In this document: piece after piece, positions 8,249-14,751 of the stretch
Layout: each line of letters opens with the position of its first letter
How positions within the stretch are numbered: the stretch's first letter is position 1
Origin: Armatimonadota bacterium
GTDB lineage: Bacteria; Armatimonadota; Fimbriimonadia; Fimbriimonadales; ATM1
DNA: 35,363 nucleotides
Direction of reading: 5' to 3'
Assembly (NCBI GenBank): GCA_021324165.1
Contig: JAJPJR010000021.1
Coordinates: 1-35,363, forward strand
Notes under the pieces: generated by a model
Database searches by the model: none
Seen by the model: only the letters and a program-made list of their open reading frames with translations
What the model was told of the DNA's origin: nothing
Made by a program: the position numbers and the translations under genes

Positions 8249-9991
8249 ATGTGGCACGTTCGCATGTTGGGCCGATTCGAAGCGGTCTCAGATGAAGCAA
8301 TTCCCGCTGTCTTTCGCTCGCGAAAGGTGGGATCGTTGCTTGCGTTCCTCTCTCTGAATGCCGACCGGCCGATATCAAATGCCGTTCTGCAGGAGATGCT
8401 GTGGCCCGAATCCGACGGAAGCAGGCAATCTCAAAGCCTCAGGCGCGCTCTTTCTGACCTCCGCGATGCGCTTGAGGACAGTGGAAGTAGAGGTGCAATC
8501 GTGCAAACCGAGCAGGGGACGACGAGGCTTGCCGAAGGTTGCATCAAGACGGATGTCGAAACGTTCACTCGTCTGCTCAACAGACCCGTCGGCGAAGAAG
8601 GGTTCGACGTTCGGGCTGCCGAGGCGGTCGGTCTCTATGGGGGCCCACTGTTAGCCCCGCTGGAAGACGACTGGGTGTTTGCCTACAGACGGCAATACGA
8701 ACAGACGTTCTGCGATGCAGTGATTGATTTATGCGGCCTGCTCTCCGCTCGGGGCCAGGCAGACGAGGCCGTTCGAATCGCGCTTTCGGCCAGCGTTCTT
8801 GCCCCGTTGCGCGAAGAGCCGTTTGTTGCCGCAATCCGTGCATACACTTCCACAGGCGAGATAGCGGCCGCGGTTCAGCAATACGAAGCGCTCGAACGAA
8901 TGCTTGATTACCATTTCGGAGAAACCCCTTCGGAAGCGGCGCAGTTGGCATTGGAATCTGGGCCTGTCACTCCCGAAGCAAGCGCCAAGGAGTCCAACAG
9001 CACCCTTGGCGGAGCAATTGCGTCTGAGTCGCGGTTCTACATAGCTCGCGAGGCTGACAGAATTGTTGACGAGGCACTTGCAGCAAGTGATCCGGTCGTG
9101 CTCGTTTTTGGGCCGCGCCAAACCGGCAAGACTTCGCTTCTCGCTCGATCGGCATCTCGTCTTCGCCGCGAGGGAGTCAGTGTGGCGGTTACCGATTTTC
9201 AATCGCTCAGCAAGGCAGAATTCGAAAGTCCAACGACCCTATACCGCGCATTGGTGCATGGGCTGTCGGCTCAACTTAGGCAGCCCTACGAGCCCTCTTG
9301 GAACGAGTGGCTCGGACCGAATTCAAACTTCGATGAACTGACTGGCGGCTTGATGCAACAGACCGAAGGCCGCATATGCTGGGTGATGGACGAAGTTGAT
9401 CGCATCTTTGGGACTGCCTACGCCGACGACTTTTTCGGCCTGGTTCGAAGTTGGCACAATCGGAGAGCCCTCGATCCAGCCGGGCCGTGGAAGAGGATCA
9501 CCTTGTTGATGAGCTATGCCACTGAAGCGCATCTGTTCATCAAAGACCTCAATCAGTCGCCTTTCAATATCGGCATTAGAGTCAACGTCACCGACTTTAC
9601 GAAGTCAGAAGTCACCGAGTTAGGTTCTCGGTACTCGGAACAACTTGCAGGGTTGGCTGAGGAAGTCTATGAAGTTACTCATGGACACCCATTCTTGGCG
9701 CGTCGCGCATTCTCGTTTCTCGCCGAAGGCCGATCTGTTGCCGAACTGAGTGAAGTCGCTCCCAAAGCCGACGGCCCGTTCGGTGACCACCTCAGGCGAT
9801 TTCACGAAGCGGTCGAGCGAGACCACGAACTCGCTGCCGAAGTTCGGCGGTTCCTTCGCAATGAACCACTTTGCTTGCCATCTACGGCCGACCGTCTCGT
9901 AGCATCTGGGCTCTTGGCTAAGTGGACTAACGGCCGGCTGGAGTTTCGTGTGCCGGCTTATCGCGACTACTTAAGCGAGGTGTTGATTTAG
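8249..9991 (+). CDS. BTAD/SARP-type regulator fused to an AAA-like (AAA_35-type) ATPase
   Basis: 580 residues from ATG 8249 (WHVRMLGRFEA, the usual opening of SARP/AfsR-type regulators). Domains: OmpR-like winged helix about 2-100, bacterial transcriptional activation domain (BTAD, helical repeats) about 102-240, linker, ATPase about 255-490 with Walker A GPRQTGKTS (288-296) and Walker B ICWVMDEVD (376-384), then a C-terminal winged-helix-like region about 520-578. The ATPase is a paralogue of the one in the convergent WD40 protein: both have FYI/SYI-R-AD before Walker A, a PFNIG...TDFT block, and HGHPFL / NGHPYL. It probably couples nucleotide-dependent sensing to DNA binding. Its last 65 bp overlap the 3' end of the WD40 gene on the other strand. 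Longer upstream starts would run into the VOC gene and are unlikely. Confidence 0.85.
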   Translation: MWHVRMLGRFEAVSDEAIPAVFRSRKVGSLLAFLSLNADRPISNAVLQEMLWPESDGSRQSQSLRRALSDLRDALEDSGSRGAIVQTEQGTTRLAEGCIKTDVETFTRLLNRPVGEEGFDVRAAEAVGLYGGPLLAPLEDDWVFAYRRQYEQTFCDAVIDLCGLLSARGQADEAVRIALSASVLAPLREEPFVAAIRAYTSTGEIAAAVQQYEALERMLDYHFGETPSEAAQLALESGPVTPEASAKESNSTLGGAIASESRFYIAREADRIVDEALAASDPVVLVFGPRQTGKTSLLARSASRLRREGVSVAVTDFQSLSKAEFESPTTLYRALVHGLSAQLRQPYEPSWNEWLGPNSNFDELTGGLMQQTEGRICWVMDEVDRIFGTAYADDFFGLVRSWHNRRALDPAGPWKRITLLMSYATEAHLFIKDLNQSPFNIGIRVNVTDFTKSEVTELGSRYSEQLAGLAEEVYEVTHGHPFLARRAFSFLAEGRSVAELSEVAPKADGPFGDHLRRFHEAVERDHELAAEVRRFLRNEPLCLPSTADRLVASGLLAKWTNGRLEFRVPAYRDYLSEVLI

Positions 9992-12900
9992 CGGATTTCC
10001 AAGGCAAGGTATTCCACATCCGATCGACGCCATCCCAGCCGACTGAAACGATCCGCGTTCCATCTGCTGAGAAGTTAGGTGTAGCGCTGGTTTCCTTTCG
10101 CCAATCGAAGTCCGGCAAACGCGAGTCGAGCTCGAACTTCAAGGACAACAAGTCAACCCCAGTCCTTCCGTCCCACAAATGGAGTTCGTTGATGTGCTTC
10201 TGCCAGATTGTCGCATTGCTTGGGATTACGATTGCCGCGATTCTCTCGCTATCAGGCGACCAGGCGACAGTGACGATTCTGACCCCTCGCCCGAGTTCGG
10301 CCACCAATTTGCGTTCCTCGATATTGAACAGGCTCGTTTCGCTCATACTATTCATCGCGGTCAGGAACCTACCGTCAGGCGAATAGACAAGCCTGCCAAA
10401 TGGGCCTCGATCTGCCTTCAGTTCTCCTTTCTTCTTTCCCGTGGCCGTATCGAACAGCGCAATTGGCGAGCCGGAAATGTCGTAATCTTTCTTCGCGCTC
10501 CGGACCCCGACGGCCATTTCTGTTCCGTCGTAAGTCAGGGCAACGCCAACCGCTCCGTATTCGAATCTCCATTGCTTGAGCACCTTCCCGTTCTCAAGCG
10601 AAATCAATCTAATGGTTCGACCTTCTGCTCCCACCGACGCGATGGTCTTGCCCGATCGGGCGATCGCCCACGTGTAGAAATCTCCGCGAAACCTGGCTGT
10701 GACTTTCTTCGTCCGCAAGTCCAATACGGCACACTCCTGCGAGTAGAGCGCGCTGCTGTCAGCAGCAGAAGTTATCCAGCGCCTGCACAACACTTTGTTT
10801 GGCACGTAGGTGGTGACGCAGCTGATGTCTCCCGACGGAAACACCCGTATTTCCTGGACGTCTCGAAACGTTTCGCGATCCAAGGCGAGCACACACCCAT
10901 TCCGTTCCAGGGCGAGCGCATAGTCCCAGTATCGAGAGAGCGCCAGGCCGCCCCCAGGTTTAGACAGCGACTTGTAGCCCTCAAAACTCCTACGTATCTC
11001 TTGACCCGTTTCCAGATTCCGGCGAACAATCGAATTGTCGCTGAGAACCGCAAAGAATTCCTTGCCGTCGTTGGAAATCGTGTGGTAAGTCACCGTTGGT
11101 CCGCCAAATTCGAGCTTCTCCATTGCGGGTCGGGGCGAAGTTTGCCAAATGACGAAATCGCCGGCGAAGGTCAGGCTCGCCAGCTTCTGTCCATCGCTCG
11201 AAAATGCGATGTCGCGAATGGTTGCCCGCTGCCCCAAATTGGTTCGAATCAGCTCTCCCGACTCCGCTTTATAAAGTTGCACAACGCCATTAATCCTGCC
11301 GACAGCGATCTGCTTTGAGTCGGGACTGAATTTGAGCGCGGAGGCGTTTTGAGAAAACGCTGGCAGCCTCGCCTGAAGGGTCAAATCTTTTGTGCGTCGA
11401 ATTTCCACCCAGTTCGTCGGCTGCGCTCCGTCCCAGTAGATGCATGCAAACAAAGAGGAGTCTGGGCTGATCTCGACGACGTCATATTGGACGAAATAAG
11501 GCAAGTCCACGCTGCAGATCGTCACTCCAGTTCGATTCCAACGATGGATTTCGCAGTGACCTGCCGCATCTACCCGAAAAGTTGAAACGATTGATCCATC
11601 TCCCAGGAAGCGGCTGAGATGGGCCGGTGACTTTCCTGAGTGGTGTGCCAGCACTTTCCCTTCGATGGTCAACAGTTCAAATGTGTTCTTATCTCGGATG
11701 CCGTCGGCTATGTAATCGCCGGTTATTGGATTTACATCGCTAATCCCTGTTCCGGGACGATAGGGAACCAACAGCTTATTTGTTCTCGTGTCGCATATCG
11801 CCATTCTGTTGTCGTGCGCGCAAAGCCACACTCGGTAACGGCCCCTTGTCAAGAAAACGTTGTCAATCAACCCAAATCCGTAGTTGCCAGCTTTTCGCAA
11901 AGCCTCTACTTCGGGGTCTTTGGGGGGCGACATCTTTTGACGGAGAGTCGGCTTTCCGTTTCTAACATCGTAGAGGCCTTCAGGAGAAGCGATCCGAAGT
12001 TCGTCGTTCTCTCCTCGTTCAAAACTGGCGAGCCGTTCGACCCAGCCGGTTGCGATTGGAGGGTTAATGAGCAGCTGCAAATGTCCGTACTCCCAATTGC
12101 GATATCGAATGCCTTGCAGTTGATCGAACGTGTTTGCTACGCGTCGTGAATCTTGCACTTCGAGTGCAAGATTCAAATTGCTGATCTGCGTATTGTAGGC
12201 CTGTCTGTCAAGCGCGCTCGACTCGGCAGACAAAGCCTGAATGGTTCTCCTTCTTTGCGTCGAAACTCGCGCGAGATCGGACGCCGTGCGCTTCAGATCC
12301 GAAAGAGATTTTTGCCGCTCGACCGAAACACGCTGAAGCTCCGCTGTGCGAGACTGCAGCGCCCGAAGCGCCGTCTGTCGCTCATCGGACAAGCGGCCAA
12401 GATCTGCATTCTTTCGCTCAAGAGTATCCAGTGCGGACTTCCGTTCCCGCGAGGTCTGCGCTAACTCATTGCTGCGTCTTCCTAATTCGGAAAGCGCTCG
12501 AGAACGCTCGTCAGCAAGCCGACTCGTATTTAGAGCGATTGCAGTGACCACGAGAACCACGACGCCTGCCGCGGCTGCTGTCCTAAGCAACGCGAGCCGA
12601 GCAGCGCCGGCCTGACGTCGAATTTCCGCGTCAGGGAGACTCTGCCTCCGCCATTTCTCGTTGAAAACCACTCGGTACAGTCGGTTGCGGATTCGCAACG
12701 ATTGCCGGTCCTCCAACCCGACGCCTGCGAGCCGCAAGGTCGCTACAATCGGATTCTCTTGTGACGCGCGAACTTCCCGCTTCCGCAACACCTGACCATA
12801 AAGGTCAAGCACTTGAGTCCGCTTCTCATCCGACGGTAACCCTGGGACGTCTGGATCCAGCATACGGCGCTCGACGTCAGCCAAGTTTGGCTCTTGCTGA

Positions 12901-13733
12901 CGACCTTCGGGCGCGATGAACAGCCGATGAATTAGCGCATCTACGTCGCGTCTGGATCGAATCGAGGGATCACCCGCGACGCAGCAGCAAACGACCTGAG
13001 TGAGATAGGGGTGGCCGTTCAACCAGTAATGGATACGCTCCATCAGTTGAGCGCCGTTCCTATCGCTGGAATCAAGGCGCGCCCCAAACCCAGACGTTTC
13101 CTGAATCGTGAAGTCCGTGATGTCAATGCGTTTGCCAATGTTGAATGGAGTGACCTGGGGATTGCGAATGAGCTGGCCAGGCGTCGCTACGCCTACCAGG
13201 CAAAACGTGAGACGACCGAACTCCCGCACTTCCGATCGGCGGTTGTAACAGTCGCGGATTCCCGCGAAGAACTCATCCGTTGGAAATGGAAGAGCGCGAA
13301 CAAAGTCAATTTCATCAATGAACACCACAACCGGCTCTTCGGTGGTGGCGAGGAGGACCTCTTGCAGGGCTCCGATCCACCGGGCAAGTGGTCCCACATG
13401 CTGATGCTCTTCCCAGTAGGCGAACAGTTCCTTTGTTCTGCCTAACTCGTGCCCGATTTCCGAAAGCAGACCTGCGTACCATTGGTCAGGATTCACGTTC
13501 GCGCCGATTCGCTGCAAATCGAGTTTGACTGTCGTCACACCGGCTTCCTTCAGCTTGACGATCGTGCGCGCAACCATCGAGGACTTCCCTTTTTGGCGCG
13601 AGTCGAGCAGATACACATACTCCTTTGCCAAAAGCGCGGCGAGAAGGGCTCCATCAGCCTGTCGCTCGATATAGCTGGGGGCCGAGGGGTCCATGGTTCC
13701 CCCGGCACGAAAGAATGTTGAGTCGCCATTCAT
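9927..13733 (-). CDS. Membrane-anchored AAA-like ATPase - coiled coil - WD40 repeat protein
   Basis: 1268 residues. Residues 1-360 are an AAA-like (AAA_35-type) domain beginning FFRAGGTMDPSAPSY, as in cyanobacterial relatives, with a P-loop DSRQKGKSS (44-52; the first Gly is Asp), Walker B VVVFIDEID (135-143), a PFNIG block and a winged-helix-like end near 346-361. One transmembrane helix follows (about 382-402). Then come four 21-residue coiled-coil repeats (418-501), a linker with RNWEYGHL as found before WD40 propellers of planctomycete kinases, and WD40 repeats from about 560 to 1240. The architecture suggests a sensor/scaffold that signals across the membrane; topology and ligand are unknown. 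ATG 13733 has no Shine-Dalgarno but a TACAAT box six bases upstream, preceded by 11-bp-spaced repeats. The C-terminal tail after the last WD40 unit is encoded in the overlap region. Confidence 0.87.
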   Translation of the reverse strand: MNGDSTFFRAGGTMDPSAPSYIERQADGALLAALLAKEYVYLLDSRQKGKSSMVARTIVKLKEAGVTTVKLDLQRIGANVNPDQWYAGLLSEIGHELGRTKELFAYWEEHQHVGPLARWIGALQEVLLATTEEPVVVFIDEIDFVRALPFPTDEFFAGIRDCYNRRSEVREFGRLTFCLVGVATPGQLIRNPQVTPFNIGKRIDITDFTIQETSGFGARLDSSDRNGAQLMERIHYWLNGHPYLTQVVCCCVAGDPSIRSRRDVDALIHRLFIAPEGRQQEPNLADVERRMLDPDVPGLPSDEKRTQVLDLYGQVLRKREVRASQENPIVATLRLAGVGLEDRQSLRIRNRLYRVVFNEKWRRQSLPDAEIRRQAGAARLALLRTAAAAGVVVLVVTAIALNTSRLADERSRALSELGRRSNELAQTSRERKSALDTLERKNADLGRLSDERQTALRALQSRTAELQRVSVERQKSLSDLKRTASDLARVSTQRRRTIQALSAESSALDRQAYNTQISNLNLALEVQDSRRVANTFDQLQGIRYRNWEYGHLQLLINPPIATGWVERLASFERGENDELRIASPEGLYDVRNGKPTLRQKMSPPKDPEVEALRKAGNYGFGLIDNVFLTRGRYRVWLCAHDNRMAICDTRTNKLLVPYRPGTGISDVNPITGDYIADGIRDKNTFELLTIEGKVLAHHSGKSPAHLSRFLGDGSIVSTFRVDAAGHCEIHRWNRTGVTICSVDLPYFVQYDVVEISPDSSLFACIYWDGAQPTNWVEIRRTKDLTLQARLPAFSQNASALKFSPDSKQIAVGRINGVVQLYKAESGELIRTNLGQRATIRDIAFSSDGQKLASLTFAGDFVIWQTSPRPAMEKLEFGGPTVTYHTISNDGKEFFAVLSDNSIVRRNLETGQEIRRSFEGYKSLSKPGGGLALSRYWDYALALERNGCVLALDRETFRDVQEIRVFPSGDISCVTTYVPNKVLCRRWITSAADSSALYSQECAVLDLRTKKVTARFRGDFYTWAIARSGKTIASVGAEGRTIRLISLENGKVLKQWRFEYGAVGVALTYDGTEMAVGVRSAKKDYDISGSPIALFDTATGKKKGELKADRGPFGRLVYSPDGRFLTAMNSMSETSLFNIEERKLVAELGRGVRIVTVAWSPDSERIAAIVIPSNATIWQKHINELHLWDGRTGVDLLSLKFELDSRLPDFDWRKETSATPNFSADGTRIVSVGWDGVDRMWNTLPWKSAKSTPRLSSRDKPAHETPAGR
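12231..12482 (-). repeat. Four tandem 63-bp coding repeats (21-residue coiled-coil units)
   Basis: Residues 418-438, 439-459, 460-480 and 481-501 of the WD40 protein align without gaps to a pattern with hydrophobics at fixed places and a recurring ER-[KQ]-x-[SA]-L-x-x-L end (for example ERQTALRAL, ERQKSLSDL). A half unit precedes them (406-417, LADERSRALSEL). Twenty-one residues is three heptads, so each unit adds a fixed length to a coiled coil. Confidence 0.8.
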
Positions 13734-13739
13734 GCAGCC

Positions 13740-13745
13740 ATTGTA
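13740..13745 (-). promoter_or_regulatory. Candidate -10 of a leaderless promoter for the WD40 ATPase gene
   Basis: The minus strand reads TACAAT (five of six consensus bases), then six bases, then the ATG at 13733. No Shine-Dalgarno is present, so the transcript probably starts at the ATG. Confidence 0.45.
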
Positions 13746-13755
13746 CGAGAGATTC

Positions 13756-13784
13756 TGTGACCGATCTCGTCACGACTTAGTCAC
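13756..13784. promoter_or_regulatory. Three GTGAC half-sites at 11-bp spacing (SARP-like operator candidate)
   Basis: Read on the minus strand, GTGACTA (13784-13778) and GTGACGA (13773-13767) are direct repeats 11 bp apart. A third element in the same register (13762-13756) is GGTCACA, the same half-site inverted. Ten bases separate it from the TACAAT -10. SARP-family activators are known to bind heptamer direct repeats at 11-bp spacing next to the -10, and a BTAD protein is encoded by the convergent gene. Binding is inference. Confidence 0.4.
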
Positions 13785-13815
13785 ATGCCCCACATCACAC
13801 TAATCCCGATCACAA

Positions 13816-13834
13816 CCGCAAGGGCATCTTGCGG
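13816..13834 (+). promoter_or_regulatory. Hairpin abutting the ribosome-binding site of the TolB-like gene
   Basis: CCGCAAG and CTTGCGG form a perfect 7-bp stem around a 5-base loop (GGCAT). The strong Shine-Dalgarno GGGAGG begins at the next base, and the ATG follows at 13846. A helix stacked against the ribosome site could modulate translation or protect the 5' end. Confidence 0.5.
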
Positions 13835-13845
13835 GGGAGGAAAAA

Positions 13846-14751
13846 ATGAAATCAAGGCTAACTTTCAAGCAATCCATGATCGTCACCGCAGCTGTCTCGT
13901 TTGTGTGCACAGCCGGCGTAATCAGTTCCATTGCTGCAATTGGAGTTGTGGCACCGCCACTTCCCGACCTGCTTTTCGTGAGCAACCGAACCGGAAGCAA
14001 CGAAATCTACTCGATGAAATCGAACGGTTCGAACGTGAAGCGGATTACAACCAACGCCGCCGCGGAATGGGAACCGCACTGGAAACCAGACGGCTCGAAG
14101 ATAGGATTCACAAGCAACGCAACGGGGAACTGGGATATCTATGTCATGAATCCGAACGGCTCAGGCATCGTGAACTTGACCAATAACCCCGCGTACGACT
14201 TCGGCTGCACTTGGTCGCCAACGGGAAACAAGATCTCCTTCATGTCGGATCGCTCGGGCAACTTTGAGATCTTTGTGATGAACGCGGACGGCACCAACCC
14301 GGTGAACATAAGCAACAATCCGGCTACGGAAGGCCATCCCGATTGGTCTCCGGATGGTTCGAAAATAGCGTTCTACAGCATGCGCGACGGAGATGAGGAG
14401 ATCTATGTGATGAACGCCGACGGCACGAACCAAGTCAGGCTGACAAACTCCCCGTCAATTGACTTTCTGCCCGACTGGTCGCCAGACGGATCGAAGATCG
14501 CCTTCACGTCGAATCGAGACGGGAACTACCAAATCTACGTAATGAATGCGGATGGGTCGAACCTGGTTAGACTCACAAACGATGCGGCATACGACTCAGA
14601 GCCGATTTGGTCGCCAGACGGCACCAAGATCGCATTCGTCACCAACCGCAACGGGAATTATGAGATCTTCACGATGAACCCGGACGGTTCGAACCAAGTT
14701 CGCCTGACGAGCAACGGAGCAGGTGACTACGACCCTTCTTGGAAACCCTAA
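13846..14751 (+). CDS. Exported TolB-like six-bladed beta-propeller (PD40 repeats)
   Basis: 301 residues with an N-terminal signal/anchor (about 9-35, hydrophobic and Ala-rich) and six near-identical repeats of about 43 residues. Each has a W-SPDG-x-KI-F segment, a short turn, and a IYVMNADGTN-x-V-x-LTN segment, as in TolB and PD40 propellers. Such propellers mediate periplasmic or surface protein binding; no catalytic residues are recognisable and the partner is unknown. The start is fixed by GGGGGAGG just upstream. Divergent from the WD40 ATPase with 112 bp between them, which suggests shared control and a possible partnership, though this rests on position only. High repeat similarity indicates recent internal duplication. 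Confidence 0.9.
   Translation: MKSRLTFKQSMIVTAAVSFVCTAGVISSIAAIGVVAPPLPDLLFVSNRTGSNEIYSMKSNGSNVKRITTNAAAEWEPHWKPDGSKIGFTSNATGNWDIYVMNPNGSGIVNLTNNPAYDFGCTWSPTGNKISFMSDRSGNFEIFVMNADGTNPVNISNNPATEGHPDWSPDGSKIAFYSMRDGDEEIYVMNADGTNQVRLTNSPSIDFLPDWSPDGSKIAFTSNRDGNYQIYVMNADGSNLVRLTNDAAYDSEPIWSPDGTKIAFVTNRNGNYEIFTMNPDGSNQVRLTSNGAGDYDPSWKP

Follow-up and report, generated by a model that had tools for sequence, protein, structure and literature searches.

A probable split STAND-type signalling pair built on AAA_35 ATPases in Fimbriimonadales and other bacteria

Two convergent genes in the window, i.e., the entire 35.4-kb contig analysed here, which comes from a member of the order Fimbriimonadales (phylum Armatimonadota) whose genome is 2.33 Mb in size and 97% complete, encode proteins with related ATPases of the AAA_35 family, and they probably form a signalling system of the STAND type that is split over two chains, with a membrane WD40 protein (w) as the receptor and transmitter and a SARP-type regulator (r) as the receiver and output. 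What is established for such pairs is the homology of their ATPases, the linkage of their genes, their congruent trees, their complementary architecture, the exchange of domains, the existence of natural fusions, and their folds. From these we infer a physical contact between the proteins, the direction of signalling, the topology of the propeller, a ligand and a set of target genes, and with them an ATPase-to-ATPase signalling that would be free of phosphorylation. The r/w pair is apparently undescribed, and its occurrence points to a widespread system.

The r gene (8249..9991, plus strand, with its ATG start codon at 8249) encodes a protein of 580 aa in which Pfam recognised Trans_reg_C at residues 25-90, BTAD at 123-230 and AAA_35 at 255-576. 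The succession of an OmpR-type wHTH and a BTAD domain (PF00486 and PF03704; 8321..8938, plus strand) is that of the SARP/AfsR family, and it makes up the predicted DNA-binding and activating output module. The ATPase (9011..9976, plus strand), with the Walker A sequence RQTGKTS, the Walker B sequence MDEVD and a PFNIG motif, matched the PF14516 profile at E 3.8e-51 to 4.8e-52 and 176 bits, against a curated cut-off of 27. Only 2-4 aa are left after AAA_35, without a further domain and without TPR in the Pfam scan, and the arrangement of large SARPs, i.e., a NOD and a C-terminal TPR sensor on one chain, is not found in the window protein. Its AF2 model (pLDDT 92.3) resembled AfsR (8k60 and 8hvr, promoter-bound) and EmbR in the N-terminal half, as judged by Foldseek, which gave a TM-score against 8k60 of 0.73-0.75 when normalised by target. 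Across 46 homologues of AAA_35r, the residues K294, D381, D384, R400 and R406 and the motif QSPFN..G were invariant.

The w gene (9927..13733, minus strand) encodes 1268 aa, comprising an AAA_35 ATPase, a winged-helix-like segment, one TM, a coiled coil and a WD40 propeller. The ATPase (12990..13700, minus strand; RQKGKSS, FIDEID and the PFNIG motif) spans residues 12-248, with an E of 2.9e-25 to 1.6e-26 and 92 bits against the same PF14516 cut-off of 27, and Pfam found no domain N-terminal of it. The single predicted TM at residues 381-399 (12537..12593, minus strand; hydropathy and AF2) lies within a long predicted helix, 368-429, and the sensor region matching the Pfam WD40 and propeller families extends over residues ~545-1245 (9999..12101, minus strand; the borders are approximate). 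The AF2 model of residues 1-430 had a pLDDT of 94.0, and K50, D140, E141, D143 and R160 of AAA_35w were invariant across 44 homologues. CHASE2, periplasmic-binding and PEGA/YARHG modules, which are found on other w proteins, are usually located outside the cytoplasm, and by analogy, therefore, the WD40 propeller of the window protein most likely lies outside as well.

The two window ATPases aligned with 30% identity and 49% positives over 260 aa (BLASTP, E 8e-21), and no other PF14516 match occurs in the 2.33-Mb genome. Four shared motif blocks had been claimed for them from the letters of the window, and the alignment located each of the four in both proteins: FYIAREAD in r and SYIERQAD in w, RQTGKTS and RQKGKSS, HGHPFL and NGHPYL, and the PFNIG block, which reads PFNIGIRVNVTDFT in r and PFNIGKRIDITDFT in w. 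The reading frames overlap tail to tail by 65 bases (9927..9991), and an overlap of the 3' ends is also present in most convergent r/w pairs of relatives. In Foldseek searches, the models of both ATPases matched archaeal 2qen/2fna, Cdc6/Orc1, and the STAND proteins CED-4 and Avs, and that of w matched MalT in addition, with Dark as a further neighbour of the ATPase fold; sequence searches of solved structures returned P-loop-level matches only. The STAND-clade P-loop ATPase and winged helix are present at the level of the fold only (AF2 and Foldseek), and the STAND arrangement of effector and sensor on one chain was not found among the 125 r and 102 w proteins compared. Since the Walker A lysine, the Walker B acids and an arginine past the Walker B helix show no variation in either r or w, both ATPases are probably active nucleotide binders.

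The relationship between r and w proved to be an old one. In a joint tree of the ATPases of 28 r/w pairs, one branch with an SH-aLRT of 100 split all r from all w, and Armatimonadota, Acidobacteriota, Pseudomonadota and Aminicenantes were present on both sides. As these reciprocal clades each hold several phyla, a single old duplication, predating the spread across phyla, is the origin of r and w that the sequences indicate. In the same tree, the window r stood next to the r of locus L040 and the window w next to the w of that locus, and the patristic distances of r and w were correlated at r = 0.86, when the maximum in 2000 shuffles was 0.26. With the shuffling of partners confined to pairs of the same genome, 0.86 was reached or exceeded in only 29/5000 trials, and thus part of the signal, if a modest one, is specific to the partners and goes beyond species history. 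Rather than falling into distant, unrelated clades, the two ATPases thus form reciprocal clades within a single family, and their trees are congruent. Covariation between the ATPases of r and w was not above that of shuffled pairs in a set of 99 pairs, too few to decide the matter.

The preliminary description had proposed a search of related genomes for recurrence of the pair, and recurrence was found. AAA_35 was present in 28 of 101 relative genomes, which constitute our Fimbriimonadales sample, and 33 of their 41 r genes had a w within 7 kb against an expectation of 0.39. Both types occurred in 27 of the 28 genomes, and in the remaining one (L069) a contig end falls where the ATPase of w would be expected. 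When one genome per species was scanned, AAA_35r proved to have more than 568 relatives. In the combined set from wider taxa, limited to r genes flanked by at least 4 kb on each side, 48 of 57 had a w within 3 kb and nine were unlinked; a cyanobacterial genome (G325) had r and no detected w. Linked genes in these wider taxa usually overlap or lie less than 120 bp apart, and in six pairs of the combined set the overlap is of 4 bases, the type associated with translational coupling. Carriers of r/w were found in at least seven phyla (Armatimonadota, Acidobacteriota, Verrucomicrobiota, Pseudomonadota, Desulfobacterota, Cyanobacteriota and Chloroflexota), and plasmid-borne pairs occur in cyanobacteria and others, e.g., on a Nostoc HK-01 plasmid, where BBD63139 (CHAT-TIR-AAA_35r) overlaps BBD63140 (AAA_35w-coiled coil-GUN4) by 4 bases. 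A plasmid of Chlorohelix (Chloroflexota) has two adjoining AAA-like genes, one of which encodes a kinase-AAA_35-LuxR HTH protein.

Four gene orders were observed, i.e., convergent, r before w, w before r, and divergent. The convergent order, with ends that mostly overlap, is seen in two groups of Fimbriimonadales, the one of the SARP type and one of the cyclase type, and the other groups have operons with either r or w leading. An independent convergent pair was seen in a cyanobacterium, with a tail-to-tail overlap at L187:3947-4004, and a Chthonomonas contig bears two full r-w pairs in tandem (L130:2274-11932). The window pair itself was missing from all seven other genomes of its family, and on account of this absence either transfer or repeated loss is suggested. 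The Aminicenantes genome of locus L145 (G300) had 59 PF14516 matches, mostly weak and in frames of ~540 aa, which probably represent a distinct, expanded AAA family.

In their architecture, the two chains complement each other. In 125 distinct r proteins, the median length was 259 aa before the ATPase and 3 aa after it; in 102 w proteins, it was 11 aa before and 828 aa after. The assignment to r or w was made from the sequence of the ATPase alone, and for that reason these complementary halves are independent evidence: neither chain bears both a sensor and an output. The outputs of r include SARP, plain OmpR-type wHTH, TIR, SARP with TIR, Ser/Thr kinase, kinase with TIR, trypsin-like, CHAT, Cro-type HTH, and a class III cyclase-like domain with or without TIR (for which the match to a solved structure had an E of 7e-14), and in some r proteins a GGDEF or LuxR HTH sits at the C-terminus. 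Outputs changed at least 17 times on the r tree, with SARP outputs in several separate places, and the combination of a SARP and a WD40 protein, taken initially for a one-off, turned out to be one version of a general chassis instead. Proteins of the order wHTH-BTAD-TIR-AAA_35 were seen at three loci (L043, L047 and L039, the TIR of the last being degenerate-looking), and it is possible that they are intermediates linking the TIR-type and SARP-type outputs.

The sensors of w are no less varied, with WD40, TPR, PEGA, YARHG, PDZ, FGE-sulfatase, CHASE2, Peripla_BP_6, GAF (in triplicate) and GUN4 among them. Nearly all of the non-cyanobacterial w proteins examined have one TM at +113 to +136 past the ATPase core; in cyanobacterial ones the TM is placed further along, after a longer linker, and a few w-like proteins are without a TM or without a sensor (L056 and L153). 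GUN4-like domains are of a tetrapyrrole-binding type, and one is present in a w protein of the Nostoc HK-01 plasmid (L194:6536-9433) that is labelled 'WD-40 repeat protein' and gave no WD40 match. Natural fusions were also found, all in cyanobacteria, after two initial sets of loci had given none: three TM-less single chains have w followed by r (L172:3846-6062, L173:4295-6586 and L174:3217-5931), and in the last of them a guanylate-cyclase domain separates the two ATPases. AAA_35w is, moreover, at the C-terminus of cyanobacterial kinase-AAA_16-GAF(-PAS) proteins of ~1900-2090 aa (L172:8910-14696, L174:8206-14469 and L178:13219-18933), in the place at the chain end that a histidine kinase occupies in HstK-type proteins.

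The mechanism we propose would be built on these anciently duplicated STAND/Cdc6-like ATPases. The propeller of w, predicted to be outside the inner membrane, would sense a ligand or a stress, and the signal would run via the single TM and a continuous helix into the cytosolic AAA_35w, which would engage the AAA_35r of the soluble r protein, altering the nucleotide or oligomeric state of AAA_35r. AfsR offers a precedent, in that its SARP is held back by the ATPase and TPR sensor until ATP binds (PMC10936776); in r/w the sensor has moved to a second protein, bound to the membrane and with a sister ATPase of its own. Once switched, AAA_35r would free or dimerise the output of r, in the window an AfsR-like SARP that may recruit RNA polymerase at target promoters; at other loci the same chassis would drive TIR, kinase, protease, cyclase-like or GGDEF outputs. 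The preliminary description had sketched such a route, from a membrane sensor to a DNA-binding partner by way of related ATPases, and it stands as the best reading of the pair, strengthened by the w-r fusions and by the way in which sensors and outputs are swapped; the contact on which it depends is the step that we infer. Against it speak the covariation that did not exceed shuffled pairs, the r genes unlinked to w or lacking a detected one, the modest specificity of partners within a genome, and the few w-like proteins in which the TM or the sensor is missing. SARPs bind direct heptamer repeats that overlap the -35 element, and a search for such repeats between w and the TolB-like gene found a single imperfect repeat with 11-bp spacing, a number at chance level (shuffles give 0.7 each).

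That r and w are homologous and adjoining could also mean that they are recent tandem duplicates that work independently of each other, a coincidence that we regard as very improbable, given that their reciprocal clades across phyla speak for an ancient duplication, that the two have stayed linked, or become linked again, in four gene orders, and that there are fused forms of the two and no chain with both sensor and output. A simpler form of partnership would have w as a membrane anti-activator, in which AAA_35w tethers an inactive r at the membrane and a signal releases it without any ATPase-driven switching. It would suit the membrane location of w in most loci and the separate convergent transcripts of the SARP-type Fimbriimonadales loci, by which the doses of the two proteins could be set independently, and it has a precedent in that STAND outputs are commonly restrained by their own sensor part, which here is on w: in AfsR, this part is the NOD and TPR (PMC10936776). 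We nevertheless think it quite unlikely, as a passive tether has no use for a Walker A lysine and Walker B acids that are invariant in both proteins, and there are w-r fusions that are soluble as well as w proteins that lack a TM.

A role in immunity or self-recognition, NLR-like and either anti-phage or abortive, is unlikely too. The sensor would then detect invasion and the output kill or raise an alarm, with the SARP version controlling a defence regulon, and TIR, CHAT and trypsin-like outputs together with FGE/C-lectin, TPR and WD40 sensors are indeed typical of predicted conflict systems (PMC10907252); the patchy distribution (0/7 of the other family genomes) and the carriage on plasmids of cyanobacteria and others also speak for such a role. 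Many versions of the pair, however, have ordinary modules, i.e., CHASE2, periplasmic-binding, GAF and GUN4 sensors and GGDEF, kinase and SARP outputs; PADLOC gave no specific match, only weak ones to P-loop, TIR or propeller; and the window copy shows no pointer to defence. Just one relative was found in viral contigs, on which ground a phage origin was likewise rejected.

A two-chain signalling system of the kind preferred here has several known counterparts, none of them identical to it. AfsR, a large SARP of Streptomyces with the order wHTH-BTAD-NOD-TPR, has, like r, a SARP output in the same place and then a STAND-like ATPase, but that ATPase is NB-ARC and not AAA_35, and r stops after its ATPase without a TPR, the sensor being on a second, membrane protein with an ATPase of its own. 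The single-chain STAND NTPases (MalT, Avs, bacterial NACHT and APAF1/CED-4) share the ATPase fold and have the output at one end and the sensor at the other, whereas r/w divides this chain over two proteins that each have an ATPase, and a membrane usually separates the sensor from the output. The paired NLRs of plants (sensor/helper) and animals (NAIP/NLRC4) are similar in design, being likewise paralogous NB-type ATPases that divide sensing and output and are often neighbours; r and w are linked genes for paralogous ATPases of which one bears a sensor and one an output, a likeness that is an analogy of design only, with homology limited to the STAND/AAA+ fold. They differ from paired NLRs in being bacterial and of the AAA_35 family, in the membrane anchoring of the sensor chain, and in outputs that include transcription factors and GGDEF. 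A hetero-complex of the two ATPases, as in paired NLRs, is favoured by the natural fusions, and covariation gave no signal for it above the shuffled pairs. The MoxR-vWA (VMAP) ternary conflict systems of multicellular bacteria (PMC7159879) also combine an NTPase with TIR, protease and propeller modules in several genes, but r/w has neither MoxR nor vWA, and no further gene is common to the 22 convergent loci.

Two-component systems, too, have a modular input on one membrane protein and a modular output on a second, and share with r/w the inputs CHASE2, GAF, PAS and periplasmic-binding and the outputs GGDEF, wHTH and LuxR. The difference is that both signalling halves of r/w are P-loop ATPases; no histidine kinase (HisKA/HATPase_c) or receiver domain was found in r and w proteins by Pfam scans. 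To us it is an evenly balanced question whether r/w constitutes a separate, general class of transmembrane signalling in parallel with histidine kinases and response regulators, with AAA_35w as a transmitter for many inputs, AAA_35r as a receiver for many outputs, and a nucleotide-dependent contact in place of phosphotransfer. The literature offered little on the family: AAA_35 appears in one relevant paper, where it is only an accessory domain that sigma factors carry, the PF14516 accession was not mentioned in the open-access literature searched, the MoxR-vWA paper (eLife 2020, PMC7159879) does not name AAA-like or AAA_35, and the r/w pair is not described in the conflict-system papers (PMC7159879, PMC10907252). 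For paired bacterial ATPases or the r/w domain combination, the open-access literature held no published description, and an earlier account elsewhere is possible.

If the proposal is true, an unrecognised two-part ATPase relay would be at work in many environmental bacteria, frequently large or multicellular ones, connecting exchangeable, mostly membrane-borne sensors to exchangeable outputs that range from transcription to NAD-degrading TIR and proteases. It would provide the reason why an abundant Pfam family, PF14516, comes in pairs, and a bacterial counterpart of paired NLRs that is open to study in cultured cyanobacteria. The old question of how a signal enters SARP-ATPase regulators would become testable, with a defined receptor at hand.

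The next gene beyond w encodes a TolB-like PD40 propeller protein with an N-terminal hydrophobic segment (13846..14751, plus strand; PD40 E 7.9e-58), and is divergent from w across a gap of 112 bases. This secreted propeller had been suggested as a ligand or partner, an idea that lost its footing when the ORFs flanking the other 21 convergent loci yielded no homologue; unconserved beside the pair, the gene was rejected as a third component and is placed outside the system. Common to the 22 convergent loci are r and w only, save in small groups of close relatives. A DinB-like gene lies near four of the 22, and the window pair has genes for SDR, DinB, an RND pump and others as its neighbours.
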